Assembly: GCA_031271265.1 (NCBI GenBank) | Contig: JAISWB010000096.1 | Coordinates: forward strand, 39,621 to 103,620 | Source: Desulfovibrio sp. | GTDB taxonomy: Bacteria; Desulfobacterota; Desulfovibrionia; Desulfovibrionales; Desulfovibrionaceae | Length of the DNA stretch: 64,000 nt | Direction of reading: 5' to 3' | In this document: positions 2,671 through 46,855 of the stretch, one piece after another | Layout: each line of letters begins with the position of its first letter | How positions within the stretch are numbered: the stretch's first letter is position 1 | Program-made: the position numbers and the translations under genes | Notes under the pieces: generated by a model | Seen by the model: only the letters and a program-made list of their open reading frames with translations | What the model was told of the DNA's origin: nothing | Databases searched by the model: none

Positions 2671-2838
2671 AACGAACGCGGAGCAGCAATTCTAATTATC
2701 GCGTTGAGCAATACGCCGTCAAGCCGGTATGTTGAGCTGAACTCTTGATTTTTCGTCGGGCGGAATGCCTGAAAAGCTGCGCCTGTGCGCGAAAAAACCA
2801 TAATTCGAATTGCTGAACGCGGAGGGAGAGAAAATTTT

Positions 2839-4755
2839 ATGTTTTGGGATGTTCGGCGCCCTGCGGAAAGCGGTATTTCGGCTACAGCCCTTGCCGGTCG
2901 CGGTAGACAAGATGCCGGAATACGATTTGCCGATGGAAAAGGGGGAGAGGTATCTCCTTTCTCTTTGCAGGCTGAGCTGGCTTCCGGGATGTTGCCTCCG
3001 GGGCCGTTTTTTTTGCTGACCATGATCGCGCCGGACAGGCGCATCGTAGAACAAATCCCCTCCTCCTTCGCCTCAGAGATGCAAAAAAAGCATGTTTCCG
3101 CCCCTTACCCCCCGATTGCGCACTTAGATGAACTCCTGAATATATATGAAAAAATGCCGACTGCGAAGCGCTTCTCCTGTTCCCGAGGTTGTTGCATCGC
3201 CGCCGTCCTGCGGGAAGAGACTGATGAGGGCGGGATTCCTGTGCCCTTCACAGCCCCGTCGGAAACAGAGCGGACGGCGTTCTGGTTGCTGCTCGCCTCC
3301 TGCCCGCCTGCGGAAGCTTCTCCGGAAAGAATCGCCTTTATGAATTCGGCCCTGAACTGTCTGGCCTGTGCTTGGCAGTGCCGGTATACGGAAAGAAAAT
3401 TTTTTGAACAGGTACACTTTGTGGAAAATATCGTGCGATCCATGTCTTCGGGTTTTCTGATTTTAACCCCGGAACTGCGGGTTACGGCCGCCAACAAGGC
3501 CGCGGCCGAACTCCTTCAGACCACGGAAAAAAAGCTGGTGGGAGCCAAACTCACGGACCTGATTTTTTCCAAACTTAAGGTGCGCCGGGTTTTCAGCACG
3601 GGCGAACCCTTGATCGACGAAGAAGTTTTTATCAAACTCGCCAATAAAACCGTGCATATCCTCAAAACTTGCGTACCCGTATTCAACATGCAAGGCGAGG
3701 TGATCGCCGCACTGGATCATTTCCGCGAAATAAAGGAAGCCCATCGGATGGTCAGCCGCATCAGCGGCACGCGAGCCGGTTTTTCCTTTGATGACATCAT
3801 CTACGGCAGCCGAGTCATGGATGAAGCTGTTGAATTGGCCCGCCTGGCATCCAAAAACTCGCTCTCAGTATTGATACACGGTGAAAGCGGCACCGGCAAG
3901 GAACTCTTCGCCCATGCCATACACCAATCAAGCAGTAGGCACGCCGCGCCTTTTATTGTCATTGATTGCGCCTCCATGCCTCGCGAGCTGGTGGAAAGCG
4001 AACTTTTCGGCTATGTGGAAGGCGCCTTTACCGGAGCTCGAAGGGGCGGTAGACCGGGTAAGTTCGAGCTTGCCGACAGCGGTACCATTTTTCTGGATGA
4101 ATTGGGCGAACTGCCGCTGGAACTGCAATCTCGCCTGCTCCGGGTCTTGCAGAGTCGCGAGGTGGTCCGGTTGGGAGGGGTGGAGCGCATGCCGGTGGAT
4201 ATAAGAATCATCGCCGCAACAAACCGAAATCTTTACGAAGAAGTCCGTCTTGGGAACTTCAGGGCGGATCTCTTCCATCGGCTCAACGTATTGGTTATTC
4301 ATATACCTCCCCTGCGATCAAGACCGGAAGACATCAAAATCCTTTCCGAGTATTTTCTCGGCAAATACCGTGCCCGCTTCAACATGCCTGATTTGCATCT
4401 AACGGCGGAAGTACATGCTGAACTGCAGGCCCGTGCCTGGCCCGGAAACGCCAGGGAGCTGGAAAACACCATAGCCAGAGCCGTGCATGTCTGCCGCGGC
4501 AGGATTGAGCCGGTACATATACGCCTTAATGTCCCATCCCCGATTGACCCGCCGGCCTCGGACTCGTGCCCCTCTTCCTTGATACGCTCTCTGCACGATA
4601 TTGAGCATAATGCTTTTAAAGAGGCTGTCGCGGCCTGTAACGGCAATATTTCCCGCGCCGCCCGCAGGCTGGGCGTAGCCCGCAGCACTGTCTACAAAAA
4701 ACTGCAGAAGGAGCATCAATGTTGTAATTCCGATTACAGGTCAAAATTGTCATAA
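2839..4755 (+). CDS. Sigma-54-dependent transcriptional activator (PAS, AAA+, Fis-type HTH)
   Basis: A 638-residue bacterial enhancer-binding protein. The first 200 residues are a variable sensory region. A PAS-like domain follows ([20 protein letters not shown], about 205-310). The AAA+ domain has Walker A GESGTGKE, the sigma-54 contact loop GAFTGA, Walker [10 protein letters not shown], and the [12 protein letters not shown] segment that holds the arginine finger. The C-terminal helix-turn-helix is [21 protein letters not shown] chose ATG 2839 rather than GTG 2785 because GGAGGGAG lies about ten bases upstream. Its position after the BKACE-dehydrogenase-AtoE cluster suggests it activates that operon from a promoter outside the window. 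The inducer is unknown. Confidence 0.9.
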
Positions 4756-9457: not shown

Positions 9458-9477
9458 CTGATTTCTGCAGAAATCAG
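9458..9477. other. 20-bp perfect palindrome between convergent genes
   Basis: CTGATTTCTGCAGAAATCAG is a perfect palindrome that overlaps the stop codon of the hybrid kinase gene. It lies between the converging FIST and kinase genes. It may help end transcription in both directions, though there is no T run. Confidence 0.45.
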
Positions 9478-11966
9478 TAATCGGCGTTTCCCTTGAGCAG
9501 CGCGCCGATTATCTCCTCCGCTTTTTGGAAGTCAGCCTCCAGGGCGCAATCGGCCGTCGCGGATACGGCTTCCCGCAACGCTTCCGGCAAAGTCAGGGCC
9601 TGCAGATACGCCAAGGCGGCATCCGTCGCGTCGATGTCTTTTGTCTCCAACGCCTTCAGCAGGCGCATCAGGGCGTTGTCGATTTCCGGCCCGCGCGCCT
9701 CCGCGCCGTCTCCGGAGCGGGCTGTGGTCGATGCCTGCGCAACGACCTCGCCTATCCGCTCCGCAAGGGCGGCAAGCGTTTCCCGAAACGGCGCAAGATG
9801 TTCGCGGATCACGGGCATCTCGCCCTCGCGCCCCGCCTTTTCCAGCAAGGCGGCCGTCTGCGACAAGGTGTCCGCGCCGACAGCGGCCAGGGCGCTTTTC
9901 AGGGCGTGAACCTGCGTTACGAAGGCGCGCAGGGAACCGGCCGGGCTTTGCCCGGAAGTTTCCGCAGGAGTCTTCGCAGGACTCTCTCCCCCGGCGGCGT
10001 CCGAAGATGAGGCGTCCGGCTCGCGCGCAAGCAACGCCGCCGCGGCTTGCGCATCCCGCCGGAACACCGTCAGCAAATCCAGGTAGCGGCGTTGCGACCC
10101 GCCGACCACGGCAATCCCGGCGGCGGTATTCAGCCCCGCGATTTCCGGAAACAACGGCGCAGCATCATCTTCTGCGCCTTGTTGTTCGCCGTTCCCGCAG
10201 CCGTTCCCGCCCGAACCGTTGTCGTCGTCCAACGGCAGTTTTCGACGTTTAGCATCGGGAATCCACTTTCTCAGCAACGCGTCCAGCTTGGGCACTTCTA
10301 TGGGTTTGGAAAGAAAGTCGTTGAAACCGTTTGCCAGGAACATTTCACGCATGCCGGAAACGGCGTTGGCCGTGAGCGCGACGACAGGCATCGTCCGGCA
10401 ACGTTCATCGGGCATGGCCCTGACGGCACGCGTAGCTTCCATGCCGTCCATGCCCGGCATCATGTGATCCATGAGGACAAGATCGTAAGTATACGCTTCA
10501 ATCATAGCCAGAGCATCCTCTCCGCTCCGGCAGGCGTCGGTTTTCATCCTGTACGGTGCGAGCAGGCCTTCCGCCACCATCAGGTTGGTATCCATGTCGT
10601 CGACGATGAGCACGCGAACATCCGGGGCGGTAAAACGAATATCCCGCCCCCGGACCTTGCCGGCCGACCTGCCGCTCAGGGAACCCATGGGACGGGCATC
10701 GGCTATGCCCTGGACGACGGTCGCGGTGAAGGTCGATCCGGTCCCGTACTCGCTCGTCACGCGCGTATCGCCGCCCATGGCGCGGCACAGGCTGCGCGCA
10801 ATGGCCAGACCCAGACCTGTACCCTGAATGGCCCTGTTGTGCATTTGGTCAAGGCGGACAAAATCCCCGAACAGGCGCGGCAAATGCTCGGGCTTTATGC
10901 CGATGCCGCTGTCGGCGACCGTGAATGTCAACTTGACCGTATCCGAAGACAACAATTCGTATTTGACCGTAAACCTGATGAAACCTTTACGGGTGTATTT
11001 GACGGCATTGGACAAAAGATTCAACAAGATCTGGCGCACACGCATTTCATCGCCGAAGAGCGCGGCCGGTATGGATTCATCCAGCTCACTTTCGAACACC
11101 AAAGGCTTGTCTTCAAGACGGACCTTGATAATCATCAATATATCGTTCAGCAGGGAAGCTGTATCATAACGCGTCGGCGCGATCTCCATCCGACCCGATT
11201 CAATCTTGGAAAAATCAAGGATATCGTTGATAATGGACAGCAGGTTCGCTCCGGCTTGCTGTATCCCGGTGATGTATTCCATGCATTGCGCTTTGCCGTA
11301 GTGCATGGCGGCCAGTTCGCTCAGTCCCATGACGGCGTTCATGGGAGTGCGTATTTCATGGCTCATGCGGGCCAGAAAAAGGCTTTTGGCAAGACTGGCC
11401 TGTTCCGCCTTTTCCTTGGCTGTGGCCAGCTCGGTAATATCGTGCAGAAGCAGCATGAAGCCTTCAACAGCGCTTCCCTGGTCCACAAGAGGCGTTATGT
11501 AGACGGAAAACACGCATACTTCATTTTTTTCACCGATACGGAGGGAGGCCTCGGCGCTGATGGTGCCTTTATCACGGTAGGCTTGCGTGAACAGGTCCGC
11601 TATCGGCGCCAGTGAAAAGCCGCTCTTCTGCGATATTTCGACAAGATCGGGAAAAGTTAAGCCCTTGAGCGTATCGACGTTCTCAATACCGACGAGTTTA
11701 AGGAACCGGTCCGTGCAGTATGCGACCTCTCCTTGCTTGTCCAGCAGCAGGATACTGTTGATGCTGTTGCTCAGCAGCATGTTCAGGTATTTTTCCTGCC
11801 GCAATTTCTCAATTTGTAAATTCGCATAGAAACGCGTCTGGGCCTGGGTAAAGGAATCCGCCAGCGTCATGGAGTTTTTCAGCGCCGTATTTTCCCGCTG
11901 CAATTTGCGTATCTGCACTTTAAGCGCCGTTACGGCGGCGGATTCATCAGGCGTGGTGTCGTTCAT
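9474..11966 (-). CDS. Hybrid sensor histidine kinase (coiled coil, PAS, HisKA, HATPase, receiver, Hpt)
   Basis: An 830-residue cytoplasmic phosphorelay protein with no membrane segments. In order: a short coiled coil (VTALKVQIRKLQRENTALK), a PAS domain (about 70-190), HisKA with phospho-acceptor His in SHEIRTPMNAVMG, HATPase with LLNLLSNAVKYT, DSGIGIKPEHLPRLF and GTGLGLAI, a receiver domain with LIVDDMD and LVLMDHMMPGMDG, and a C-terminal Hpt domain with VHALKSALAAVG. I chose ATG 11966, two bases after the stop of FIST protein 2, implying translational coupling. Soluble architecture plus a coupled FIST gene suggests that FIST supplies the signal. The output partner is not visible. Confidence 0.9.
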   Translation of the reverse strand: MNDTTPDESAAVTALKVQIRKLQRENTALKNSMTLADSFTQAQTRFYANLQIEKLRQEKYLNMLLSNSINSILLLDKQGEVAYCTDRFLKLVGIENVDTLKGLTFPDLVEISQKSGFSLAPIADLFTQAYRDKGTISAEASLRIGEKNEVCVFSVYITPLVDQGSAVEGFMLLLHDITELATAKEKAEQASLAKSLFLARMSHEIRTPMNAVMGLSELAAMHYGKAQCMEYITGIQQAGANLLSIINDILDFSKIESGRMEIAPTRYDTASLLNDILMIIKVRLEDKPLVFESELDESIPAALFGDEMRVRQILLNLLSNAVKYTRKGFIRFTVKYELLSSDTVKLTFTVADSGIGIKPEHLPRLFGDFVRLDQMHNRAIQGTGLGLAIARSLCRAMGGDTRVTSEYGTGSTFTATVVQGIADARPMGSLSGRSAGKVRGRDIRFTAPDVRVLIVDDMDTNLMVAEGLLAPYRMKTDACRSGEDALAMIEAYTYDLVLMDHMMPGMDGMEATRAVRAMPDERCRTMPVVALTANAVSGMREMFLANGFNDFLSKPIEVPKLDALLRKWIPDAKRRKLPLDDDNGSGGNGCGNGEQQGAEDDAAPLFPEIAGLNTAAGIAVVGGSQRRYLDLLTVFRRDAQAAAALLAREPDASSSDAAGGESPAKTPAETSGQSPAGSLRAFVTQVHALKSALAAVGADTLSQTAALLEKAGREGEMPVIREHLAPFRETLAALAERIGEVVAQASTTARSGDGAEARGPEIDNALMRLLKALETKDIDATDAALAYLQALTLPEALREAVSATADCALEADFQKAEEIIGALLKGNADY

Positions 11967-11968
11967 GG

Positions 11969-13120
11969 TTACAGTACGCAGGCAATCATTGAAAAATTCT
12001 GGAAGCTGTTGACAAGCCGGCCGTCGCGATTTTTCACGGGACAGAATTCTCCGCCGGCATAGATGATGCGGTAGGGGAGCAGGGGACCCAGGCAGTCGAC
12101 CACTTCCCGCATTTCCGCGGTCGGTCGCATGCCGAGCGTCCATTTGCGGGCGCTGCAGGAGACGATCAGCACGCTTGCTCTTCCGGAAGCAGCGACGGCC
12201 CCGGCTATGCTTTCTCTTGCGGAGTTGAGGACAAATTCCGCGTTGCAGTCGGAAAAACCTATTGTCGCGCCCTGGGGGACGTTGCCGTATGTCGCGATGT
12301 ACCCTTCCTGCGTGGCCCGGTAGGGGGAGCGTACCAGACGGGTGCCGTCGTTCAGGCGCAGGACGAAGGGGATGGCGGCGATGCCGGAGATGCTTCCCTT
12401 GTCGGCCAAGCCTATGGATTCAAGATAGTCGAACGCTCTCAGGCCGTTGATGCTCTGAATCAGGTGTTTTTCCGACCGGGTAATGACGGCGTTTTGATGT
12501 ATCACCCTGTCGTCCGGAACGGTGGTATGGTAAAATTCCGGCTTGACATCCCCGAATAAGGCAACAAGCGTGAACAGGTTCTCCTGAGGCTCGCCGTTCA
12601 TGCATGGCGAACTGTTGCCTAAGCCGGGCCGGGCACCGGCGGCCAGAGAGCCGAACACGGGAACTCCGCCGGACGCCGCGTCCAGAGCCTCGATGAAGTC
12701 GTCCCCCCCGGCGTTGTTTATGATCGGGGCGACCGTCAGGAGCAGGGCGGGCTTCTCTCCGTCATGAGGCGCGAGTTCCGCGTACAATGCCCGTATGGAC
12801 GCGCCGGGGTCGTCCCCAAGGGGGACGGCGCCCGCCCTGAACTCGACATCGTCGCTCGTCAGCACGGTAACGGCCAGCATCAGGTTCCCCAGGGCACCGG
12901 GAACTGCAAGATAGGACGTCGTTCCGCCTATGCTGTCGAAAGGCAGAGCCGCGCTCACGGCCTTGATAACGCCTGTTTCCAGGAAGTCCGGATAAAAGTC
13001 CGTCAACGCAACGGAATTGCGGAGCAGGCGTTCGTCGAGGCGCAACTGCTCCAAAATTTCCGCCGCGGTGCGCTCGATGTAGTCGATCTCCCGTGTGTAT
13101 GCGGTCAGCATGCGTATCAT
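11969..13120 (-). CDS. FIST-domain sensory protein 2
   Basis: A 383-residue paralogue of the FIST protein at 8245, with matching blocks such as LPFDSIGGTTSYLAVPGALG, ALDAASGGVPVFGSLAAG, EFYHTTVPDDRVIH and VNSFQNFSMIACVL. I chose ATG 13120 (MIRMLTAYTREID), which aligns with the start of the paralogue and has AGGGG upstream; the longer ORF to 13366 adds unrelated sequence. It ends two bases before the hybrid kinase start. It lies 180 bases downstream of fliI, so it could be read through from the flagellar operon. The likely role is ligand sensing for the adjacent kinase; the ligand is unknown. Confidence 0.82.
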   Translation of the reverse strand: MIRMLTAYTREIDYIERTAAEILEQLRLDERLLRNSVALTDFYPDFLETGVIKAVSAALPFDSIGGTTSYLAVPGALGNLMLAVTVLTSDDVEFRAGAVPLGDDPGASIRALYAELAPHDGEKPALLLTVAPIINNAGGDDFIEALDAASGGVPVFGSLAAGARPGLGNSSPCMNGEPQENLFTLVALFGDVKPEFYHTTVPDDRVIHQNAVITRSEKHLIQSINGLRAFDYLESIGLADKGSISGIAAIPFVLRLNDGTRLVRSPYRATQEGYIATYGNVPQGATIGFSDCNAEFVLNSARESIAGAVAASGRASVLIVSCSARKWTLGMRPTAEMREVVDCLGPLLPYRIIYAGGEFCPVKNRDGRLVNSFQNFSMIACVL

Positions 13121-13301
13121 GCGGTCGCCCCTGTGCGGGAGCATCCCCTGTTCTGTGGGTAGGAATAGTTCTGCGTGTCCACGAGCCCCCTGCGTTGCGG
13201 TTGTAAACGGCAGAACGGGACCGGCGTTGCCCTGAAACGGCAACCAACGGCAATCCGCAATCTCCGGCGTACACAACTGCTGAAGCCGCATACCACGAAA
13301 A

Positions 13302-14624
13302 TTACAGGAGAGCAAGCGTGTGCAGTTGCGTGAAGCTGTCCTCCAGCGAACAGGCGGTGCCGACATCCTGGCGCAAAAAGGTGTTCGCAGGCGTGCGCGT
13401 GTCTATGGCCTTGTCTGTTTCCGGATTGGAACCGCGGGCATAGGCCCCGATATTGATCATGTCTTCCACGCGCCTGTAGGCGGCGAGTCTGGAAACGACC
13501 ACGCGTCCGTCTTGCGTGACGCCGTCCGACACCAGGTCCGGGCGCAGGCGGCTTATGCTGCGCAAGACGTCTATAGCCGGAAAATGTCCTTCGTCGGCGA
13601 GTTCGCGGGTCAGCACGATATGCCCGTCGAGGATGGAACGCACGGCGTCGGCTACCGGCTCCGTGAAATCGTCGCCGTCCACCAGGACCGTGTAGATGCC
13701 GGTGATGGACCCGGCGGCGCTGCGTCCGGCGCGTTCCAGCAGCTTGGGAAGTTGGGCGAAAACGGAGGGCGTGTAGCCCTTGGCGGCCGGAGGTTCGCCG
13801 ACGGCCAGACCGATCTCGCGCGCGGCCATGGCGAAACGCGTTACGGAATCCATCATGAACAGGACATCCTGCCCCCTGTCCCGGAAGTACTCGGCCACGG
13901 CCGTGGCCGCGTAAGCCGCCCGCATGCGCAGCAGGGGCGAGCGGTCGGACGTGGCCACGACCAAAACGGAGCGCGCCGCGCCTTCCCTGCCCAAATCCTT
14001 TTCGATGAATTCAAGAACTTCGCGCCCGCGTTCACCGACCAGCCCGATGACGTTGACGTCCGCCTGCGTATAGCGGGCCATCATGCCCATGAGCGTGGAT
14101 TTGCCCACTCCGGACCCGGCCATGATGCCCATGCGCTGCCCCTTGCCCAGCGTGAGCAGGGCGTTGACCGCGCGTACCCCCACGTCCAGAGCCTCGGTTA
14201 TGCGCGGCCGGGACAGGGGAGGAGGGGGATCGGCATACAGGGGCACGGATTCCGGAAGATCGACGGAAACGGAAGGATCGAGGGGTGCGCCGAAGGGGTC
14301 GAAGGCTTTGCCCCGCATATCCGGGCCGACGGGAAACAGGGGAGAACGGCCGACAACGCCGACCAGGCTGCCCGGCCGCACCCCGCGCAGGTCGCCGTAA
14401 GGCATGAACAGCAGCGAACCGTCGCGGAACCCCACAACCTCGACGTCCACCCCGACCTCCCGCCGCGTTCCGCCGTCCGGAAAAATACGGCACACGGACC
14501 CTACCGGGGCATTCAGGCCGCTGCCTTCGGCCACCAGCCCGACGACCTTGTTGACCTTGCCGTAACAGGTTACGGGCCGAAGCGCGGACAGGGCGCGCAA
14601 CGCGCCGCGCGGGGCGGAACTCAT
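13302..14624 (-). CDS. fliI: Flagellar type III export ATPase FliI
   Basis: A 440-residue F1-beta-like ATPase of the flagellar export apparatus. Walker A is MAGSGVGKSTLMG, Walker B lies in VLFMMDSVTRFA, and the QLPKLLERAG and GSITGIYTVLVDGDD segments are characteristic. ATG 14624 overlaps the fliH stop as ATGA, giving coupled translation with its regulator FliH. It is the last recognisable flagellar gene of the minus-strand operon; the usual next gene, fliJ, is not present in the 180-base gap downstream. Confidence 0.96.
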   Translation of the reverse strand: MSSAPRGALRALSALRPVTCYGKVNKVVGLVAEGSGLNAPVGSVCRIFPDGGTRREVGVDVEVVGFRDGSLLFMPYGDLRGVRPGSLVGVVGRSPLFPVGPDMRGKAFDPFGAPLDPSVSVDLPESVPLYADPPPPLSRPRITEALDVGVRAVNALLTLGKGQRMGIMAGSGVGKSTLMGMMARYTQADVNVIGLVGERGREVLEFIEKDLGREGAARSVLVVATSDRSPLLRMRAAYAATAVAEYFRDRGQDVLFMMDSVTRFAMAAREIGLAVGEPPAAKGYTPSVFAQLPKLLERAGRSAAGSITGIYTVLVDGDDFTEPVADAVRSILDGHIVLTRELADEGHFPAIDVLRSISRLRPDLVSDGVTQDGRVVVSRLAAYRRVEDMINIGAYARGSNPETDKAIDTRTPANTFLRQDVGTACSLEDSFTQLHTLALL

Positions 14625-15448
14625 GCCGGGCGCGCGTCCGGGCCTTGCCCGGCGTTGTCCGGGGAGGGCCGCGCGGGATGCGCTCCCCCGGTTGCGCGCG
14701 CCGTATCGGTGAAACCCGCGTCCTGCCCGAAGTTTTCGGCAAGGCTGAGATCCTTGAGCACTTCGTCCACCGCCGCGATACGGCTCTCCAGGCGCCCGTC
14801 GGCCAACGACGATTCGCTCTCCACCAGCATGCCGCCCGGAGTAATTGCCGGGTCGGCGCGCACGCGCCAGGACGCGACATCCGGAAAACGCTCCCCGGCC
14901 GAGGCTATGATGTCCTCCAGGACGGGCGCGTCCTCAGCGCTCACGTGTATGACCAGCGTCCGGCGTTTTTCCAGAAGCGCCGCGGCTTCGTCGAGCAGGG
15001 CGGTCAGCACGGCGGCGCGCCTTTCCGACAGTTCAAGGGCCGTGATCCGCTCCACGGCCAGACGGGCCACTGCCGTGATATCGTCGCGCTGCTGTTCGAA
15101 GATATGCGAACATTGTCCTTCTATGGCGCCCAGAACGGCGGCAAGCGACTCGGACGTCCCCGCGCGGAACTCCTCAAGTTCTTCGGAGGCCCGGGCCATG
15201 CCGGCGGCGTAGCCCGTTTTTTCCGCCTCGGCGCGGAGTTCGGCCGCCTCGGAAGCGGCCGCGGAAAGAATGTCCGCGGCCATGGCCTCCGCCTTGCGGC
15301 GCACACGCGCCAGGTATTCAGTTTCGTCCTTGTCGTTCCACGCGGTCGTCCGCCCGCGCTCGAAGCTCCCCAGACCGTATTCGTCGCCGCGCGAGTAAAT
15401 CGTGCCCCACGCATCGGCGCGTTTTTCCCCTGCGTCAGACAAAGACAT
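14621..15448 (-). CDS. fliH: Flagellar export regulator FliH
   Basis: A 275-residue protein between fliG and fliI. The middle is Glu/Ala-rich and helical (ILSAAASEAAELRAEAEKTG, with FliH-type GYAAGMARA). The C-terminal ATPase-stator-like domain includes LVIHVSAEDAPVLEDI and DPAITPGGMLVES. FliH binds FliI and restrains and positions the ATPase at the export gate. The last 30 residues are a Pro/Gly/Ala-rich tail. The start overlaps the fliG end by 14 bases and the stop overlaps the fliI start, so translation is coupled. Confidence 0.9.
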   Translation of the reverse strand: MSLSDAGEKRADAWGTIYSRGDEYGLGSFERGRTTAWNDKDETEYLARVRRKAEAMAADILSAAASEAAELRAEAEKTGYAAGMARASEELEEFRAGTSESLAAVLGAIEGQCSHIFEQQRDDITAVARLAVERITALELSERRAAVLTALLDEAAALLEKRRTLVIHVSAEDAPVLEDIIASAGERFPDVASWRVRADPAITPGGMLVESESSLADGRLESRIAAVDEVLKDLSLAENFGQDAGFTDTARATGGAHPARPSPDNAGQGPDARPA

Positions 15449-16448
15449 CGCCTCCGCCGCGGCTGATCATGATGCGGCCCTCGCCTTCCAGTTTGCGCAC
15501 TACCTTGACGATGTTCTGCTGCGCGGCCTCGACGTCCGAAAGCCGCGTCGGCCCCATGATTTCCAGGTCTTCGCGGATCATGTTCCCGGCGCGCTCGGAC
15601 ATGTTCCTGAAGAACAGCGCCTTCATGTCGTCCGTTGCCCCGCGCAGGGCCATGGTCAGATCCTCGTTGGAAATTTCCTTGAGAATCTCGCGGACGGAGC
15701 GGTCTTCAAGACCCTTGACATCCTCGAAGACGAACATGAGGTTGCGGATTTCCTCGGCCATTGAGGACGAGGTTTCCTCGATTTCCGCCAGCACCTCTTC
15801 TTCGGTGGCGCGGTCCACGGCATTGAGAATCTCAGCCACGGAGTTGATGCCGCCCACTTTCTTTCCTTCTTTTCCGCCCATAGCTATCAGTTGGCTCTCC
15901 AGCACCCTGTCGACAGCCATGAGCATATCTTCGGGCACGGACTCCAGGTTGGCGAGGCGGATGAGAATTTCCGACCGCACGCCGGTCGGCAGTTTGGTCA
16001 GCAGGTCCGCCGCCTGATCCGTAGGAAGGTTGCCCAGGATCAGCGCCAGTGTCTGGGGATGTTCGTTGCGCAGGATCTGCGCCAGTATCTTGGTGGACAC
16101 CTTGCCTATGCCCCTGAAAGGCACGGGGCCGGTGTCCAGTTCCAGATAATCGCTTACATATTTGGCCGTATCGCTGTCCACATTGGGCAGCAACAGGCGT
16201 TTGACGGCGTCCTGCCCGCCCCTGACCAGTTCGCGCCCCGTGACCAGAGCATGGTAGTATTCGCGCAGAACCGCCTCGACCAGTTCCTTGGGCACCGTTT
16301 CCATCTGCAGCATGGCTTTGGAAACGGCGGCCAGCTCGTCGCGGTTCATACGCTTGAAGACCTCGGCGGCGAACTGTTCACCCATGGTGAGCAGCAAAAC
16401 CGCTGTCTTTTTCGCGCCTTCAAGGGAAAACTGAGTGTCCGTCGCCAT
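15435..16448 (-). CDS. fliG: Flagellar motor switch protein FliG
   Basis: A 337-residue rotor protein that transmits torque from the stator and sits on the FliF ring. The N-terminal half binds FliF (KKTAVLLLTMGEQFAAEVFK). The middle domain carries the EHPQTLALILGNLPTDQAAD segment, matching the family EHPQ motif. The C-terminal torque domain has FEDVKGLEDRSVREILKEIS and ALFFRNMSERAGNMIREDLE with the expected charged residues. ATG 16448 has GGAGGAT upstream. Confidence 0.97.
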   Translation of the reverse strand: MATDTQFSLEGAKKTAVLLLTMGEQFAAEVFKRMNRDELAAVSKAMLQMETVPKELVEAVLREYYHALVTGRELVRGGQDAVKRLLLPNVDSDTAKYVSDYLELDTGPVPFRGIGKVSTKILAQILRNEHPQTLALILGNLPTDQAADLLTKLPTGVRSEILIRLANLESVPEDMLMAVDRVLESQLIAMGGKEGKKVGGINSVAEILNAVDRATEEEVLAEIEETSSSMAEEIRNLMFVFEDVKGLEDRSVREILKEISNEDLTMALRGATDDMKALFFRNMSERAGNMIREDLEIMGPTRLSDVEAAQQNIVKVVRKLEGEGRIMISRGGGDVFV

Positions 16449-16514: not shown

Positions 16515-18158
16515 TCAGGCCGCCTTGGCCGGGACGGAAGCGGGCACGGCCGTTCCGCCGGTCTTGAGCCAACTCCTGAGAATTCCGATGGCCTGTTCGA
16601 TGTTCTGCTCACTCAGTTGCATGGCATGGACCTTGATGTCCTCGAGTTTTTCCAGCATGGCGGTGGCGGCCACGGCTTCCTCGTCGTCTTCCATGAGGGC
16701 CAGGCGCTCGTCCGCGGCGGCCAGACCTTCCAGTCCTTCGATGCCTTCAAGCATCGTGCCTTCGACCTTGGGACGGATCAGGGCCATGATGACCGGACGG
16801 ACGATCAGGAGCAGGAAAAGAAAGGCCAGCAAGGCATTGAGCAGGGGTTTGCCGAAGCGCAGGGCGTTGTCGGCCAGGTAGCCGGCCATGCCCTTGGGCG
16901 CATCCAGTTCCACGCCCTGGAAGGCGATGTTGCTCACTTCCAGGGTATCGCCCCTGGCCGAGTCGTAACCCACCGCGTTGGCCACAAGCTGGCGAATGCG
17001 CTGCATTTCCTCGGCAGAGCGGGGAGCGAAGACGCTCGTGCCGTCGTCATTTTTCTCATAGTTGCCGTCCACGACCACGGCAACACTAAGGCGGTCCACG
17101 GTGCCGACATCGGACACTATGTTTTGTTCTTCCTTGTTGATTTCAAAGTTGGTGGAGCGGTTTTCGCTGGTGGAATTCTGGTTGGACACGGTGCCGGACG
17201 GGCCGTCGCCCCTGAAATTCGGGTCCGGAACTCCGCCTTCAATAGCCGCCCGTCCCTGGGTACCGGTTTCCGAGCGCGTTTCCGAGCGCACCACGGTTTT
17301 TTCCGGGTCAAACAGTTCGCGGCGGATGGTTTTCCGGCTGAAATCCAGTTCCGCGTTGACCCTGGCGATGACCCGGCCCGCGCCGACCACGGGCATGAGC
17401 ATTTCTTCTATACGCCGCTCCAGGGTTCGCTGGGCGGTCATTTTGTAATCGTGTTGCGTGCGGGTCAGTCCGTCCAGGCTACCTTCCTCTTCGGGCTGGT
17501 AGAGGGATTTGCCGTTGGTGTCGGCTATGGACACCTTGCCCTTGTCCAGGCCTTCCACGGCCATAGTCACCAGATTGACCAGGGCCTCGATGTCGCTGCG
17601 TTCCATCTTTCTCATGCCCGACAGCTTCAGCAGCACCGAAGCCGACGGTTTTTGCTGTTCCTCGATAAAGAGGCTGCGGTTGGGTACGACAAGGTGGACC
17701 CTGGCGCTTTCCACGCCGGGAAACTCGCTGATCGTGCGGGCCAGTTCGCCTTCAAGGGCGCGGCGGTAGAAGAGCTTCTGCACGAAATCGGTCTGCCCGA
17801 CCTTGACGTCGTCGAAAATTTCAAAGCCCACGCCCTGCCCGGTCATGATATTCTGCCCGGCTATGCTGATGCGCAGGGCATGTACCCTGTCCTCGGGCAC
17901 CATGACGGCGCTGCCGTTCTTTTCCAATTTGTAGTCGACCTTTTCGGTTTCCAGCGCCTTGATGACGTTTGCGGCGTCCTGCGGGGTAAGATCGGCATAG
18001 AGCAGGCCGTATTCCTCGCCTCCCAGCCAGACGGCCAACACCAGAAAGCTGCCCACCGCGAGTACGGACAGGCCGCCCAAAAACACGCGCTGAGTTATGT
18101 TTCTGCCGGACCAGAAGTCAAATATGCGGCTCTTGGCCGATTCCAGAAAGGGCGACAT
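16515..18158 (-). CDS. fliF: Flagellar MS-ring protein FliF
   Basis: A 547-residue inner-membrane ring protein. Transmembrane helix 1 (VFLGGLSVLAVGSFLVLAVW) is near residue 25 and helix 2 (LLNALLAFLFLLLIVRPVIM) near 445, with the periplasmic ring-building region between. It includes SARVHLVVPNRSLFIEE and EEMLMPVVGAGRVIARVNAE. The cytoplasmic tail ends with the FliG-binding helix (NIEQAIGILRSWLK). ATG 18158 has AAGGAG seven bases upstream. Confidence 0.97.
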   Translation of the reverse strand: MSPFLESAKSRIFDFWSGRNITQRVFLGGLSVLAVGSFLVLAVWLGGEEYGLLYADLTPQDAANVIKALETEKVDYKLEKNGSAVMVPEDRVHALRISIAGQNIMTGQGVGFEIFDDVKVGQTDFVQKLFYRRALEGELARTISEFPGVESARVHLVVPNRSLFIEEQQKPSASVLLKLSGMRKMERSDIEALVNLVTMAVEGLDKGKVSIADTNGKSLYQPEEEGSLDGLTRTQHDYKMTAQRTLERRIEEMLMPVVGAGRVIARVNAELDFSRKTIRRELFDPEKTVVRSETRSETGTQGRAAIEGGVPDPNFRGDGPSGTVSNQNSTSENRSTNFEINKEEQNIVSDVGTVDRLSVAVVVDGNYEKNDDGTSVFAPRSAEEMQRIRQLVANAVGYDSARGDTLEVSNIAFQGVELDAPKGMAGYLADNALRFGKPLLNALLAFLFLLLIVRPVIMALIRPKVEGTMLEGIEGLEGLAAADERLALMEDDEEAVAATAMLEKLEDIKVHAMQLSEQNIEQAIGILRSWLKTGGTAVPASVPAKAA

Positions 18159-18204: not shown

Positions 18205-18534
18205 TCAGAATTGAAGCCTGGACAATTCTTTGTAGGCTTCCATCACCTTGTTGCGCACGGCGGCGGTCATGTTCATGGCCAGACTCGCCTTCTGCATGGA
18301 AATCATGAGTTCGTGCACATTCTGGTGTTCACCTGAAGCAAAGGAGGCTACAAGGTCCGAACGTTCGATCTGCGCTTTGTTGACTTTTTCCAGAGATGCG
18401 CCGAGCACCTCGGCGAAAGCGTCGACACGGCCCGCCTCTTTGGGCACGGTCATGCTTTTGGCCTTGTTTTCGGCCTTGGCGAAATTACGCAGGGCTTCGT
18501 TGTATGCCTTGAGTCCGACGGCTTGAATGCTCAT
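18205..18534 (-). CDS. fliE: Flagellar hook-basal body complex protein FliE
   Basis: A 109-residue rod/MS-ring junction protein, normal length for FliE. It starts MSIQAVGLKAYNEALRNF and ends NMTAAVRNKVMEAYKELSRL, the conserved C-terminal helix. ATG 18534 is used; the track adds a TTG codon upstream. The Shine-Dalgarno AAAGGAA comes from the end of an R1 repeat in the gap between flgC and fliE. It is the third gene of the flgB operon. Confidence 0.93.
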   Translation of the reverse strand: MSIQAVGLKAYNEALRNFAKAENKAKSMTVPKEAGRVDAFAEVLGASLEKVNKAQIERSDLVASFASGEHQNVHELMISMQKASLAMNMTAAVRNKVMEAYKELSRLQF

Positions 18535-18625
18535 CAAAAATTCCTTTACGGTTTACCGGCGCTCCCTTCCGGGAGATTCCCGATCGACTCCCGGCCGGAC
18601 CGGGAAGGACTTTTCGGAACGCCTT
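18535..18625. repeat. R1 repeat, left half, acting as the fliE leader
   Basis: Reads AAATTCCTTTACGGTTTACC, then GCTCCCTTCCGGGAG and CCCGGCCGGACCGGG palindromes. Its end, read on the minus strand, is ACCGTAAAGGAATT and provides the fliE ribosome binding site. It is the only non-coding spacer of this size inside the flgB-fliI operon. Confidence 0.6.
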
Positions 18626-18627
18626 GC

Positions 18628-19065
18628 TTATCTGTTGATTTCAAGCGCTTTGCCGTACATCTGCTTGACGGCGTCAATGGTGGCCACATTGGCCTCATAT
18701 CCGCGCTGGGCGGTCATGAGGGCGGCCATTTCCTCCATGACGTTGATGTCGGGGTAAGCGACATAGCCGTCTTCGTTTGCATCGGGATGCCCCGGTTCGT
18801 AGACCAGTTTCAGGGGTCGCTGGTCCACGGGTATGGCCTGCACGCGCACGCCGCGCAATTCCTTGTCCAGTTCCCCGCGCATCTGCGTTTTGAAATCGGC
18901 GTCCAGGGGCGTGGATTCCATAATCACGCTGCGTCTGCGGTACGGACCGCCGTTTGCCGTCCTGGTGGTTTTGACGTTGGCCAGGTTCATGGAAATGATG
19001 TTGATATGGGTGCGCTCGGCGCTCAGGGCGGAAGCGCCCATATCCAGAGCAGTGATGAAGTCCAT
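18628..19065 (-). CDS. flgC: Flagellar basal-body rod protein FlgC
   Basis: A 145-residue proximal rod protein. The N-terminal rod signature SALSAERTHINIISMNLANV and C-terminal EMAALMTAQRGYEANVATID helices are conserved and form the coiled-coil core of the rod. The start overlaps the flgB stop (TAATG), so translation is coupled. Confidence 0.96.
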   Translation of the reverse strand: MDFITALDMGASALSAERTHINIISMNLANVKTTRTANGGPYRRRSVIMESTPLDADFKTQMRGELDKELRGVRVQAIPVDQRPLKLVYEPGHPDANEDGYVAYPDINVMEEMAALMTAQRGYEANVATIDAVKQMYGKALEINR

Positions 19066-19475
19066 TATTTCTGTCCCTCGACTATCATTTGTTTGAGCCC
19101 TTCGAACTTGCTGCGGATAATCGTGCTCAGGGCCGAATAGTGCAGGTTGGTCTTGGCCATTTCGGCCATTTCCTTATCCAGGTCCACACGGTCCTCGCCG
19201 TGGACGATGCGCGGCTTGAACGCCTTCTCCCAGGCCGGCGCAAAGCCTTGTGCCGAAAACTGCGAAGGGACGTGCGCCGGGTCGGTGCGGGTCATCTTGC
19301 CCTTGGCGTCAAGGCCCAGCGCCGTCTGCAGATCATCTTCGAATTTCAGCTTCCGCGCCCGGTAGCCGGGCGTCTTGACGTTGGCCATGTTGCTGGAAAT
19401 GACGTTCTGTCGCTGCAGCAACAGGTCCAAAACCTTCCCCGACAGCATCACATCCCGATCAAAAAGACTCTTCAT
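19065..19475 (-). CDS. flgB: Flagellar basal-body rod protein FlgB
   Basis: A 136-residue proximal rod protein and first gene of the minus-strand flagellar operon. It has the rod motif VISSNMANVKTPGYRARKLK near the N-terminus and the C-terminal helix EMAKTNLHYSALSTIIRSKF. ATG 19475 has GGAGGG just upstream. A sigma-54 promoter motif lies 75-90 bases upstream. Confidence 0.96.
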   Translation of the reverse strand: MKSLFDRDVMLSGKVLDLLLQRQNVISSNMANVKTPGYRARKLKFEDDLQTALGLDAKGKMTRTDPAHVPSQFSAQGFAPAWEKAFKPRIVHGEDRVDLDKEMAEMAKTNLHYSALSTIIRSKFEGLKQMIVEGQK

Positions 19476-19549
19476 GACTCCCTCCGCTGTTCCCCGGCCG
19501 TGCCGGGCGCCGACGGGAAAATTTTTCCCGGTGCATTGCCCGAATCGGC

Positions 19550-19565
19550 AGCAAAAAATATGCCA
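19550..19565 (-). promoter_or_regulatory. Sigma-54 promoter of the flgB operon
   Basis: On the minus strand the sequence is TGGCATATTTTTTGCT. GG and GC are separated by exactly ten bases, as required for -24/-12 recognition, and 10 of the 12 conserved positions match. It would start transcription near 19540, about 65 bases before the flgB ATG. A CGGGAAAA/TTTTTCCCG hairpin lies in the resulting leader. Confidence 0.78.
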
Positions 19566-19801
19566 CTACTGTACTATACTGAAATGTTTATGTTTAAATA
19601 AATTTTGGAAAAACGGCGTCATTTTTTTGGAGCGAAGCAAACGGGCCGGGTCATATGTCCGAAGAGGAAGACTTTTCCCGTTGGGGGCGGCGGAAATCGG
19701 TCGGAACGGCCGGGGCGGGCGGACGTACATACGCGGGTACGGCCCGGCAAAGCCTTGTGGAGAGCGGAAAATAAAGCATCGCCGGAGTCGGCTGTTCAGC
19801 T

Positions 19802-19817
19802 TGGCACGGTCTTTGCT
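19802..19817 (+). promoter_or_regulatory. Consensus sigma-54 promoter of the TPR gene
   Basis: TGGCACGGTCTTTGCT matches the TGGCACG-N4-TTGCW consensus at every conserved position, with ten bases between GG and GC. Transcription would start near 19828, leaving a leader of about 43 bases to ATG 19871. It diverges from the flgB promoter about 240 bases away, so both may share an activator. Confidence 0.85.
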
Positions 19818-19870
19818 GTGGAGCAGGCAGACAACCATATCGCTTCGGCGAAACTTCTCAGGAGGGGATC

Positions 19871-20428
19871 ATGAACCACGTTGACTATGAAATCAACAAA
19901 GAACTCGGCGAATGCTACCTGTTCATGGGCGAGTACGACAAGGCCCGCGACTATTATCACAAGGCTGTGGAGTGCGATGCAGGCATGATAGACCCCTATC
20001 TCGGTCTGGCGGCCGTAGCCGTGCACAAGGGCGATTATGACGATGCCCTGGCCTTGTACAGAAAGGCGCATCAGGTAAGTCCGGGAGAAAAATCCCTGGC
20101 GGGCATGGGTATGATGGAAGTGGAGCAGGGCAGCTATCCGGAAGCCTTCGGGCACTTTTCCGCCGCCCTGGGGCACAATCCCGGCAACATGATGGCCGTC
20201 AACAGTCTGGTGCAGCTCGGCTATGTGCTGAACCGCCTGGAAGACGTGCTGCCGCATCTGGAGGCGGCTCTTGAGCCGGGCGACACGCCGGCCGTGCGCT
20301 ACACCCTGGCGGCCTGCCTCATCGCTCTCGGCCGTGAAAACGATGCCAGGGAGCATCTGGAAATTTTGCTCGGCGAAAATCCGTCACATGACGACGCCAA
20401 ACAACTTTACGCGCAATTAGCCGCGTAA
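19871..20428 (+). CDS. Tetratricopeptide-repeat protein, likely sigma-54 regulated with flagella
   Basis: A 185-residue soluble protein with about four to five TPR units, e.g. GECYLFMGEYDKARDYYHKA, YLGLAAVAVHKGDYDDALAL and SLAGMGMMEVEQGSYPEAFG. It has no signal peptide or membrane segment. ATG 19871 has AGGAGG upstream. A perfect sigma-54 promoter precedes it, back to back with that of the flagellar operon, so it is probably expressed with flagellar genes. TPR proteins act as protein-binding scaffolds or chaperones; the partner is unknown. Confidence 0.8.
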   Translation: MNHVDYEINKELGECYLFMGEYDKARDYYHKAVECDAGMIDPYLGLAAVAVHKGDYDDALALYRKAHQVSPGEKSLAGMGMMEVEQGSYPEAFGHFSAALGHNPGNMMAVNSLVQLGYVLNRLEDVLPHLEAALEPGDTPAVRYTLAACLIALGRENDAREHLEILLGENPSHDDAKQLYAQLAA

Positions 20429-20775
20429 AACGGTGTGTAGGGGGTAGCCAATCCTCCATCGCACGATCCCCCCCGTACGATTTCCCGGCCTTACGCCGGC
20501 GCGGGAGGCCGGGAGATCAACAAAAAACGGGGGGAGAGAAACATCTGGGAACATCTTTGCGCGCCGGAGCCCGGCGGGGATTGAACGGCAGCGCGGGCCG
20601 GGGCAACAACGGGAAGAGCAAGGCCGCGCCAATATAGCTCCGGCGGCAGGCAGTCCCTGCGGCCGACAGGGCTTCATTCCGGCGGCTGAGGTGATCGCGC
20701 GGCATACGGCGCGCGCGGCGCCGGCGGGTTCATCACGAGGCCGGCGGCCGGCAGTCGTTGCGCCCGGCCGTGATT
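20429..20775. other. Gap between convergent TPR and thiC genes
   Basis: 347 bases that contain GC-rich inverted repeats (for example GGGGG...CCCCC at about 20438-20480 and CCCGGCC...GGCCGGG at about 20483-20515). These may end both transcripts. No ORF with coding character, tRNA or riboswitch was recognised. Confidence 0.5.
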
Positions 20776-22050
20776 TCACTCCCGCAGCATGGTGACCGCG
20801 CAGAACCCGCCGCACATCGCGCAGACTTCTTCGTCTGCGTGTTCTGCGCGTTTGGCGCACACTGCCGCCGGGTCCAGCGCATTTTCCTGCATCAGTTTCC
20901 AGTCGAGTCTTTTTCTGGCCCCGGACATGGCCTGTTCACGCTTCAGCGCATGGGGCCTGCCCAAGGCGCGTTCGCCGGCCTGAGCGGCTATGCGCGATGC
21001 GGTCACGCCGGCGCGCACGTCGTCCCTGTCCGGCAGCGTCAAATGTTCCGCGGGCGTCAGGCAGCAGAGAAAATCCGCGCCGGCCTCCACGGCAAGCGCC
21101 CCGCCTATGGCCCCGGCGATATGGTCGTAGCCCGGACAGACGTCGGACACCAGGGGGCCGAGCACATACAGCGGCGCGCCGCCGCAGGCGGCCTTGATGC
21201 CGAGAATCTGCGCGCGCACCATATTCAGGGGCACATGCCCCGGCCCCTCCACCATGCACTGCACACCGGCCTGCAGGCCGCGCTTGGCCAGTCTGCCCAG
21301 CGTGACGACCTCCTCCCACTGGGCCGGGTCTCCGGCATCGGCGCCCGCGCCGGGCCGCAGACCGTCGCCCAGGGACAGGACGACGTTGTGCGCGCGGGCT
21401 GTCTTCAGTACGCGTTCATAATCTGTGAGCAGGGGATTTTCCTTGTTGTGCGTGCGCATCCAGCGGGCAAGTATGGAACCGCCGCGCGACACGATGCCCA
21501 TGACGCGCCCCCCCGCTTCCGAAGCCCAGGCCGCGCCGCGTTGCGTGAGGCCACAGTGTACCGTCATGAAGTCGACTCCCTGCTCGGCCTGCCGCTCTAT
21601 TTCCTCGAAAAGCTCGGCCGGGGAAAAGTCGGCCGGGTCTTTGCCGGCATCTATATAGCGTTGGGCCACGGCATATATAGGTACGGTGCCCAGGGGCAGA
21701 GGGCAGGCGGCGAGCATCGTTTCCCGGCAGAGGCGTAAATCTCCGGCCACGGAAAGGTCCATCACCGTATCGGCCCCGGCCGCCGCGGCAACGGCCAGTT
21801 TGTCCAGTTCCTTGTCCAGGTCGTTGCGCAGAGGGGAGGTGCCGATATTGGCGTTGACCTTGACGCGGGCAGGCTGCCCGACCAGGCAGGGCTTCAGGCC
21901 GGGATGGCGCGGGTTGCCGAGCAGGACCATGGTGCCCTGTTCCAAAGCCGAGCTGATGTCGGCCGGCGTCAGACCTTCCTGCTCTGCCAGGCAGGCTTGG
22001 GAACTCTCCAGAAGACCGGCCAGAGCCGTGTTCTGTTCAAAAAGAGACAT
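20776..22050 (-). CDS. thiC: Phosphomethylpyrimidine synthase ThiC
   Basis: A 424-residue radical-SAM enzyme converting aminoimidazole ribotide to the thiamin pyrimidine. Family blocks include VKVNANIGTSPLRNDLDKEL, VDFMTVHCGLTQRGAAW, GIVSRGGSILARWMRTHNKE and MVEGPGHVPLNM. The C-terminal cluster-binding motif is CAMCGGFC, a CX2CX3C form. It is the short ThiC type. I chose ATG 22050; upstream codons do not fit the family. The 224-base upstream region, shared with the divergent transporter operon, shows no TPP riboswitch. The paralogue BzaF, which makes 5-hydroxybenzimidazole for cobamides from the same substrate, is an alternative that sequence inspection alone does not exclude. Confidence 0.85.
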   Translation of the reverse strand: MSLFEQNTALAGLLESSQACLAEQEGLTPADISSALEQGTMVLLGNPRHPGLKPCLVGQPARVKVNANIGTSPLRNDLDKELDKLAVAAAAGADTVMDLSVAGDLRLCRETMLAACPLPLGTVPIYAVAQRYIDAGKDPADFSPAELFEEIERQAEQGVDFMTVHCGLTQRGAAWASEAGGRVMGIVSRGGSILARWMRTHNKENPLLTDYERVLKTARAHNVVLSLGDGLRPGAGADAGDPAQWEEVVTLGRLAKRGLQAGVQCMVEGPGHVPLNMVRAQILGIKAACGGAPLYVLGPLVSDVCPGYDHIAGAIGGALAVEAGADFLCCLTPAEHLTLPDRDDVRAGVTASRIAAQAGERALGRPHALKREQAMSGARKRLDWKLMQENALDPAAVCAKRAEHADEEVCAMCGGFCAVTMLRE

Positions 22051-45160: not shown

Positions 45161-45982
45161 TCAGTCGACGGCGTTTACGTTGCGCAGGGGGGTGCCGAGC
45201 GCTTCGCCGGCAGACAGAGTGCCGCGCAGTTGTTCCAGTTTTTCGGCCGCCGCCATGCAGTCCTGGGAGGCAGGCGAACGCGGCGCCAGATCCATGAGCG
45301 GCCGTTGTTTGCGCACGGCATCGGTCAGCCCCTTGTCTGAGCGGACTTCACAGAGAAAAGAGGGTGCAAAGCCGAGAAAGCGTTTGCATACGGCCGCCAG
45401 ACGATTGAAGGTCCGCTTAGCCTCGGCCTGTGACTCCGCCATATTCACGATGATGTGGAAGTCCGTCACATCATAGCGGGCCGACAGCACTTTCATAAGG
45501 GCGTAGCTGTCCGTTAGGGAGGTCGGCTCCGGGGTAATCACCACAAGGCGCAGGGTGGTCATTGTTGCGAAATTCAGGACGGTGGGCGAGATGCCTGCCC
45601 CGATGTCCATGCAGACGAAATCGTATTCTGCGGCCAGAGGGTTGAGCCTGTCGCGCAACATGCTGCGCGCCCCCGCGTCCAGGTCCACGAAGTCCGCCAT
45701 GCCGGAGTTGGCGGGCAGCAGATCCAGCCCCGGCCGGCCTCCTGCGCCGAAGGGGATCAGAATTTCCGCAGGGTCCTGGTTGTTGATGAGTATGTCCTGC
45801 ATATGCTTTTCCGGAGTAACACCCAAAAGGACATCCATATTGGCCAGCCCCATGTCGCAGTCTATGAGCAGCACCTTGCGGCCGTGCAGGTGCAACCCGC
45901 AGCAGATGTTCAGGGCCAGATTGCTTTTGCCCACACCTCCTTTGCCGCTGAGTATGGAAAAGCTGACGGTTTTTCTGTTCAT
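45161..45982 (-). CDS. MinD/ParA-family ATPase, FlhG-like
   Basis: A 273-residue deviant-Walker ATPase: Walker A ILSGKGGVGKSNLALNI, switch LLIDCDMGLANMDVLLGV, and ANSGMADF. The GLANMDVLLG wording is typical of FlhG/YlxH, which sets flagellar number and place. No flhF is adjacent. ATG 45982 lies four bases after the stop of the GGDEF gene. FlhG is the best guess; a chromosome or protein-localising ParA is the alternative. Confidence 0.8.
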   Translation of the reverse strand: MNRKTVSFSILSGKGGVGKSNLALNICCGLHLHGRKVLLIDCDMGLANMDVLLGVTPEKHMQDILINNQDPAEILIPFGAGGRPGLDLLPANSGMADFVDLDAGARSMLRDRLNPLAAEYDFVCMDIGAGISPTVLNFATMTTLRLVVITPEPTSLTDSYALMKVLSARYDVTDFHIIVNMAESQAEAKRTFNRLAAVCKRFLGFAPSFLCEVRSDKGLTDAVRKQRPLMDLAPRSPASQDCMAAAEKLEQLRGTLSAGEALGTPLRNVNAVD

Positions 45983-45988
45983 GGCAGT

Positions 45989-46855
45989 TTACTCCGGATC
46001 CATATCGGCGAACAGGAATTGCTTTTCGCCCGCATGGACCAGACTGGTCCGGTCCTTGTTCAGTTTTGCGCTTGAGGCTGCGGCAACATTGTTTTTACCG
46101 TTTTTCTTGACCTCGTACATGGCTTTGTCCGCGCTTTCCAGGAGGCAGGCGCTGTTTTTGCGTTCGCGGTCAAGCAGGGCGAGGCAGGCAACCCCGCCCG
46201 AGAAGGTCATGGTGAAGTTCTCCCCTCTGCATGCGAAGTGTTCTTTTTTGAGCGCGGAGAGCAGGCGGTTGCCGAGCATGACTCCCGTCCAGACGGTTGT
46301 GGCGGGTAAAATAACGGCGAATTCCTCACCGCCGATGCGCGCGGTAATGTCGTAGTGGCGCATGGAGTTCTGCAGCAGTCTGGCCACATCCTGCAGAACA
46401 TGGTCGCCGCAGGCGTGGCCCCAGCGGTCGTTTACCTGCTTGAAGTCATCCAGATCTAAAAGTATCAGGCTCAACTCGGTGTGCGAGCGCAAGGCCCTGG
46501 AGACTTCTTCGTCAAGACGCCTGTTGAAGTAGCCGCGGTTGCCTATGCCCGTGAGCGCGTCGTGGTCGCGTTGAAACGCGAGGCGCTGCTGCAGTTCGAG
46601 CATCTTTGCCACCGCTTCGGCCCGGTCGCACTGCAGGGGCACGGCCAGCCAGTTGTCCAGACCGTAGGTGGACGCGCAACGCTCCCAGTCTTCGAGGGAT
46701 ATGCCCTGAAGAACGCGCACAAGGGCAGTTGCCGCGTTGTTCCGGACGGGCGCCTGCGCCAGAACGCTCCCGACCACGTCTTCCAGGTCGGCGAGCATAT
46801 TGCCGTATATGCCGCCTTCGGGCGGCAGCGGCGCGTCATTGAATTTTGTCGGCAT
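45989..46855 (-). CDS. Diguanylate cyclase (GGDEF) with intact active site and I-site
   Basis: A 288-residue protein. The GGDEF domain (about 95-260) has HDALTGIGNRGYFNRRL, LDLDDFKQVND, the active site IGGEEF and an RxxD inhibitory site (RHYD) five residues before it. The N-terminal 90 residues are an unrecognised helical region. It should make cyclic di-GMP. Its start overlaps the prfB end by 20 bases. It is encoded just before the FlhG-like ATPase, linking the messenger to flagellar control. Confidence 0.9.
   Translation of the reverse strand: MPTKFNDAPLPPEGGIYGNMLADLEDVVGSVLAQAPVRNNAATALVRVLQGISLEDWERCASTYGLDNWLAVPLQCDRAEAVAKMLELQQRLAFQRDHDALTGIGNRGYFNRRLDEEVSRALRSHTELSLILLDLDDFKQVNDRWGHACGDHVLQDVARLLQNSMRHYDITARIGGEEFAVILPATTVWTGVMLGNRLLSALKKEHFACRGENFTMTFSGGVACLALLDRERKNSACLLESADKAMYEVKKNGKNNVAAASSAKLNKDRTSLVHAGEKQFLFADMDPE

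Follow-up and report, generated by a model that had tools for sequence, protein, structure and literature searches.

Divergent sigma-54 promoters between the flgB operon and a TPR gene in Desulfovibrio, and a candidate flagellar accessory factor

A sigma-54-dependent flagellar circuit is known from Desulfovibrio vulgaris Hildenborough, in which DVU0316, heading the DVU0316-DVU0310 operon, and DVU0318 were reported as targets of the regulator DVU1063 (Rajeev 2011, PMC3333781; Kazakov 2015, PMC4641369). The sigma-54 promoters of both genes fit 5'-RNA-seq, and DVU1063 is the regulator behind most of the binding sites located downstream of promoters (Kazakov 2015, PMC4641369). The sigma-54 flagellar promoters controlled by FlbD in Caulobacter also involve an EBP with a degenerate receiver and GGCA-N5-TGCC sites, although this system belongs to another class of bacteria and serves another gene set. 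With regard to TPR proteins, the closest worked-out precedent is FlmG of Caulobacter, which combines a TPR half and a glycosyltransferase half in one protein and whose TPR domain binds flagellin (PMC7591256). The SycD/LcrH chaperones of type III secretion (TIGR02552) are, like the protein considered here, small cytoplasmic TPR proteins.

The window (the whole stretch of Desulfovibrio DNA analysed, 64 kb in length) contains a 395-bp intergenic region from which the flgB operon and a gene encoding a TPR protein diverge (Table 1). Potential -24/-12 elements were scored at the 12 informative positions of the consensus TGGCACGNNNNTTGCW (form TGGCACG-N4-TTGCW). The earlier note had described two such elements with ten bases between GG and GC, diverging 240 bp apart, the one of the TPR gene being a perfect consensus, and this description was borne out: the spacing is exactly ten bases in both elements, 236 bp separate them, and TGGCACGGTCTTTGCT matches the consensus at every informative position. 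Transcription is predicted to start at about 19828 (+) on the TPR side, leaving a leader of about 43 nt, and at about 19539 (-) on the flgB side, leaving a leader of about 64 nt. About 0.07 sites with a 12/12 match are expected in 64 kb, as against about seven with a 10/12 match, four of which were observed; since sites of the latter quality are common by chance, the flgB-side element would be unremarkable if taken alone. No sigma-70-like promoter was detected in a scan of positions 19400-20800.

Table 1. Coordinates of the promoter elements, palindromes and genes at the flgB-TPR locus (positions in the window).
Feature	Position	Strand	Basis or remark
sigma-54 -24/-12 element of the TPR gene, TGGCACGGTCTTTGCT	19802..19817	+	12/12 match, exact GG-N10-GC
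sigma-54 -24/-12 element of the flgB operon, TGGCATATTTTTTGCT	19550..19565	-	10/12 match, exact GG-N10-GC
Palindrome GGAAAATTTTTCC, putative FlbD/DVU1063-type EBP site	19516..19528		degenerate GGCA-N5-TGCC, directly below the predicted flgB start
Palindrome GGAAGACTTTTCC, putative shared enhancer	19666..19678		centre ~121 bp from flgB GC, ~143 bp from TPR GC
TPR protein, 185 aa	19871..20428	+	Pfam TPR matches, alignment, AlphaFold2 model
flgB, proximal rod protein	19065..19475	-	Pfam Flg_bb_rod; ORF list
flgC, proximal rod protein	18628..19065	-	Pfam Flg_bbr_C and Flg_bb_rod
fliE	18205..18537	-	ORF and position; tblastn matches in other flagellar loci
fliF, MS ring	16515..18158	-	ORF; tblastn matches in related loci
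fliG, rotor	15435..16448	-	PF01706 match (G000:C36:55085-55405) within ORF
fliH	14621..15448	-	ORF; tblastn matches
fliI, export ATPase	13302..14624	-	ORF; tblastn matches
Strong hairpin where the TPR gene and thiC converge	20479..20518, within 20469-20534		fold of 20429-20560, z = -4.5

Compared with the DVU1063 regulon, the locus shares the promoter class with its consensus tGGcacg / tTGCt, the type of EBP and, in degenerate form, probably the type of palindrome, and the layout agrees as far as locus numbers show; judging from gene order, DVU0318 is probably the ortholog of the TPR gene. The differences lie in the organism and in the palindromes, both of which are GGAA-N5-TTCC in the window and deviate from the published GGCA-N5-TGCC by two symmetric changes. 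As the D. vulgaris reports (Rajeev 2011; Kazakov 2015) precede it, the regulatory finding is ordinary in kind and not new, and it carries an already described flagellar circuit over to a Desulfovibrio lineage of the gut. The earlier prediction of a TPR gene co-regulated with the basal-body genes is supported by the paired conserved sites, the FlbD-type palindromes lying between the sites and next to them, the retention of sites and palindromes after relocation of the gene, an EBP that follows flagella and the near-perfect co-occurrence of TPR and FliG, though the prediction itself is not novel. The new elements are the close tie of the TPR gene to flagella and its distant homologues in flagellin-glycosylation islands; the role of the TPR protein, rather than its regulation, is the more interesting part.

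The genome to which the window belongs has one Sigma54_DBD match, corresponding to RpoN, and 13 Sigma54_activat matches. Among the activators, a FlbD-like EBP candidate of 504 aa (the L083 protein, G000:C82:462-1973) carries GAFTGA and a Fis-type HTH, and no receiver domain was detectable in it by Pfam. Both this protein and DVU1063 have an atypical receiver, the two being paired by description and not by sequence. Full-length or nearly full-length orthologues (517-1116 bits) were found in 10/10 tested genomes with FliG and the TPR gene, and in the tested genomes without FliG the FlbD-like EBP was absent, only weaker matches to the AAA domain being present (at most 316 bits). One flagellated genome without the TPR gene (G030) gave a partial match of 379 bits. 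The window itself encodes a PAS-domain sigma-54 activator (2785-4755, +), which is distinct from the FlbD-like one.

Taken as a whole, the locus is, with high probability, a bidirectional region through which a FlbD-like EBP and sigma-54 drive both transcription units, the TPR protein being a cytoplasmic adaptor dedicated to the flagellum. The 395-bp region would then act as a single sigma-54 control region, in which an EBP of the DVU1063 type, most likely the 504-aa protein mentioned above, would bind the two palindromes and activate sigma-54 polymerase at both -24/-12 elements, so that flgBC-fliEFGHI and the monocistronic TPR gene would be switched on together. The adaptor may bind a flagellar substrate, our best guess being flagellin en route to glycosylation or export. 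The two promoters with their conservation, the palindromes, RpoN and the EBP, and the co-occurrence across genomes are read from the DNA, and the binding, the activation and any function of the TPR protein are our inference from them.

The TPR protein consists of about five repeats and a C-terminal helix, with an N-terminus (DYEINKELGECYLFMG) that is near-invariant in an alignment of homologues. It has no obvious signal peptide, and its AlphaFold2 model is all-helical with a pLDDT of 95. Searches of Pfam, NCBIfam, PDB sequences and PDB folds returned generic TPR matches only, and assignment to a known family was therefore rejected. A carboxylate clamp was likewise rejected, as helix A of repeat 1 has E at the position of the clamp asparagine (alignment inspected by eye).

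One proposal, compatible with the adaptor model and specifying its function, is that the cytoplasmic partner of the TPR protein is flagellin or another late substrate, which would be passed on to DUF3880/GT9 glycosyltransferases or to the export gate, much as the TPR half of FlmG serves the glycosyltransferase half of the same protein; by analogy, this seems possible, if on balance unlikely. The closest homologues outside the order occur in family f37 (E 1e-36 to 1e-38), have equal length and the FEI..ELGECY N-terminal signature, and share an operon with genes for a DUF3880 glycosyltransferase and a GT9, adjoining flagellin, FliD and FliS in both genomes whose flanks were read (G287 and G378). 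Within the order of the window, a DUF3880 glycosyltransferase was found in 31/31 tested flagellated genomes with the TPR gene, in 3/7 flagellated genomes without it and in 0/18 genomes without FliG; in the window's own genome it is paired with GT9, and in G113 it lies directly next to flagellin. The binding of flagellin by the TPR half of FlmG (PMC7591256) provides a precedent. However, TPR domains are frequent in glycosyltransferase clusters, the exceptions in families f3 and f6 (see below) may reflect mere kinship, and the Desulfovibrionales gene usually adjoins rod genes, not flagellin. The protein resembles FlmG in being tied to flagella and in having distant homologues among flagellin glycosyltransferases, and differs from it in being a free 185-aa protein that has TPR matches only, lacks a catalytic domain and has its gene next to rod genes. 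The match in G458 consists of a TPR region in fusion with a glycosyltransferase, adjoining a FliD C-terminus. The link to flagellin glycosylation is a lead that hints, by analogy, at a flagellin-handling adaptor. Its most specific form, in which a stand-alone adaptor of most flagellated Desulfovibrionales would hand flagellin to DUF3880/GT9 as a split FlmG, timed with the basal body by the shared FlbD/sigma-54 enhancer, we hold to be rather unlikely.

Sigma-54 control shared with the DUF3880 glycosyltransferase genes was also considered and rejected for want of supporting sites, neither sigma-54 sites nor palindromes linking to the DUF3880/GT9 genes having been seen, which likewise tells against the flagellin-handling proposal. 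The f37 loci (L113, L115, L127 and L129) form a flagellin glycosylation island beside fliC, fliD and fliS, which encodes DUF3880 glycosyltransferases, GT9, a glycerophosphotransferase and a glycerol-3-phosphate dehydrogenase.

Another specification of the function would make the TPR protein a SycD/LcrH-type chaperone for rod, hook or export, in favour of which are its small size, its cytoplasmic location, its predicted co-expression with rod genes and a weak similarity to LcrH_SycD (E 6.7e-12). Its TIGR02552 score, however, is 45.3 bits, far under the curated cut-off (104.8 bits), generic TPR families do equally well, and the structural matches are to generic TPR folds, so that this assignment appears improbable.

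The dedication of the adaptor to flagella, as assumed in the preferred model, is consistent with the distribution of its gene. Among 197 genomes of the family, almost all of which are 90% complete or better, the TPR gene and FliG occur together in 169 and are both missing from 23; three have FliG only and two the TPR gene only (Fisher p ~1e-24, kinship ignored). At the thresholds used the TPR gene is single copy, with two matches listed in one genome. Joint absence of TPR and FliG was observed in several genera (g7, g34, g45 and g47). FliG without a TPR match is found in G080, G084 and G096. One of the two genomes with TPR alone (G214) has flagellins, and its FliG is therefore probably missing from the assembly. 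The other, G182 (locus L133), is a reduced genome of 1.6 Mb from the same family, in which FliG, flagellin and the FlbD-like EBP are all absent and the TPR gene is intact, with its promoter and palindrome retained; it looks like a case of recent loss of flagella. Families f3 and f6 include flagellated genomes without the TPR gene, so the protein is not universally needed and would be an accessory to the flagella of most, but not all, flagellated members of the order. Found in almost all flagellated genomes of the family, missing where flagella are missing and distantly tied to flagellin glycosylation, it clearly qualifies as a candidate for a flagellar accessory factor that has gone unrecognised.

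The persistence of the TPR gene in G182 could also mean that the protein is non-flagellar and that the sharing of the region is an accident of the divergent layout. Against this stands the absence of the gene along with flagella in several genera, as well as its behaviour in genus g45, where it is located at a distance from the flagellar operon: each of the eight copies examined retains a -24/-12 element, about 70 bases ahead of the start codon, together with one or two palindromes that lie about 205-237 bases upstream. The relocated gene thus owns its control, which is not a by-product of adjacency to flgB, and a non-flagellar role seems very unlikely. A GGCGCATAC..GCGC-like stretch recurs between promoter and start codon upstream of the TPR gene in the g45 loci L068-L075.

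The conservation of the promoter pair was assessed across several families of the order, in a set of 51 non-redundant flgB-TPR intergenic regions in which the gap spans 169-1325 bp. A site scoring 10/12 or better faces the TPR gene in 50 regions (about 1.0 expected under an order-1 Markov model) and flgB in all 51 (about 0.9 expected); both occur together in 50/51, compared with an expectation of about 0.01. Because both are conserved in related intergenic regions, the elements are, on this comparative evidence, promoters. That the two matches are chance, as the number of 10/12 sites expected in 64 kb (about seven) might suggest, is refuted by the conservation of both in 50/51 loci and deserves practically no credence.

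The palindromes are also over-represented in these regions. The exact GGCA-N5-TGCC form is present in 13/51 regions (0.27 expected), and the wider form GGMA-N5-TKCC, a widening chosen after the loci had been inspected, occurs at least once in 36/51 (2.6 expected) and at least twice in 25/51 (0.06 expected); 15/51 loci have none of the wide form. They cluster 20-70 bases from the flgB start codon (24/51 loci) and 170-260 bases from it (24/51 loci), and the window has one in each of these intervals, GGAAAATTTTTCC and GGAAGACTTTTCC, respectively.

The TPR gene is a single gene on the plus strand, convergent with thiC. The hairpin between the two is a possible end of the TPR transcript; it is without a U-run and failed an intrinsic-terminator scan. 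A single-protein search of genome contigs returned four close Desulfovibrio relatives and no distant match, the closest named records being Desulfovibrio sp. metagenome-assembled genomes and one further Desulfovibrio sp. record. On the other side of the region, fliI is followed on the same strand by genes for a protein with a FIST domain and for a histidine kinase that carries receiver and Hpt domains (9474-13366, -); since fliI overlaps at its end with the FIST ORF, these two genes may be the tail of the operon. Elsewhere in the window, a MinD/ParA-type ATPase, possibly a FlhG-like pole-placement factor, adjoins a GGDEF protein (45161-46855, -).
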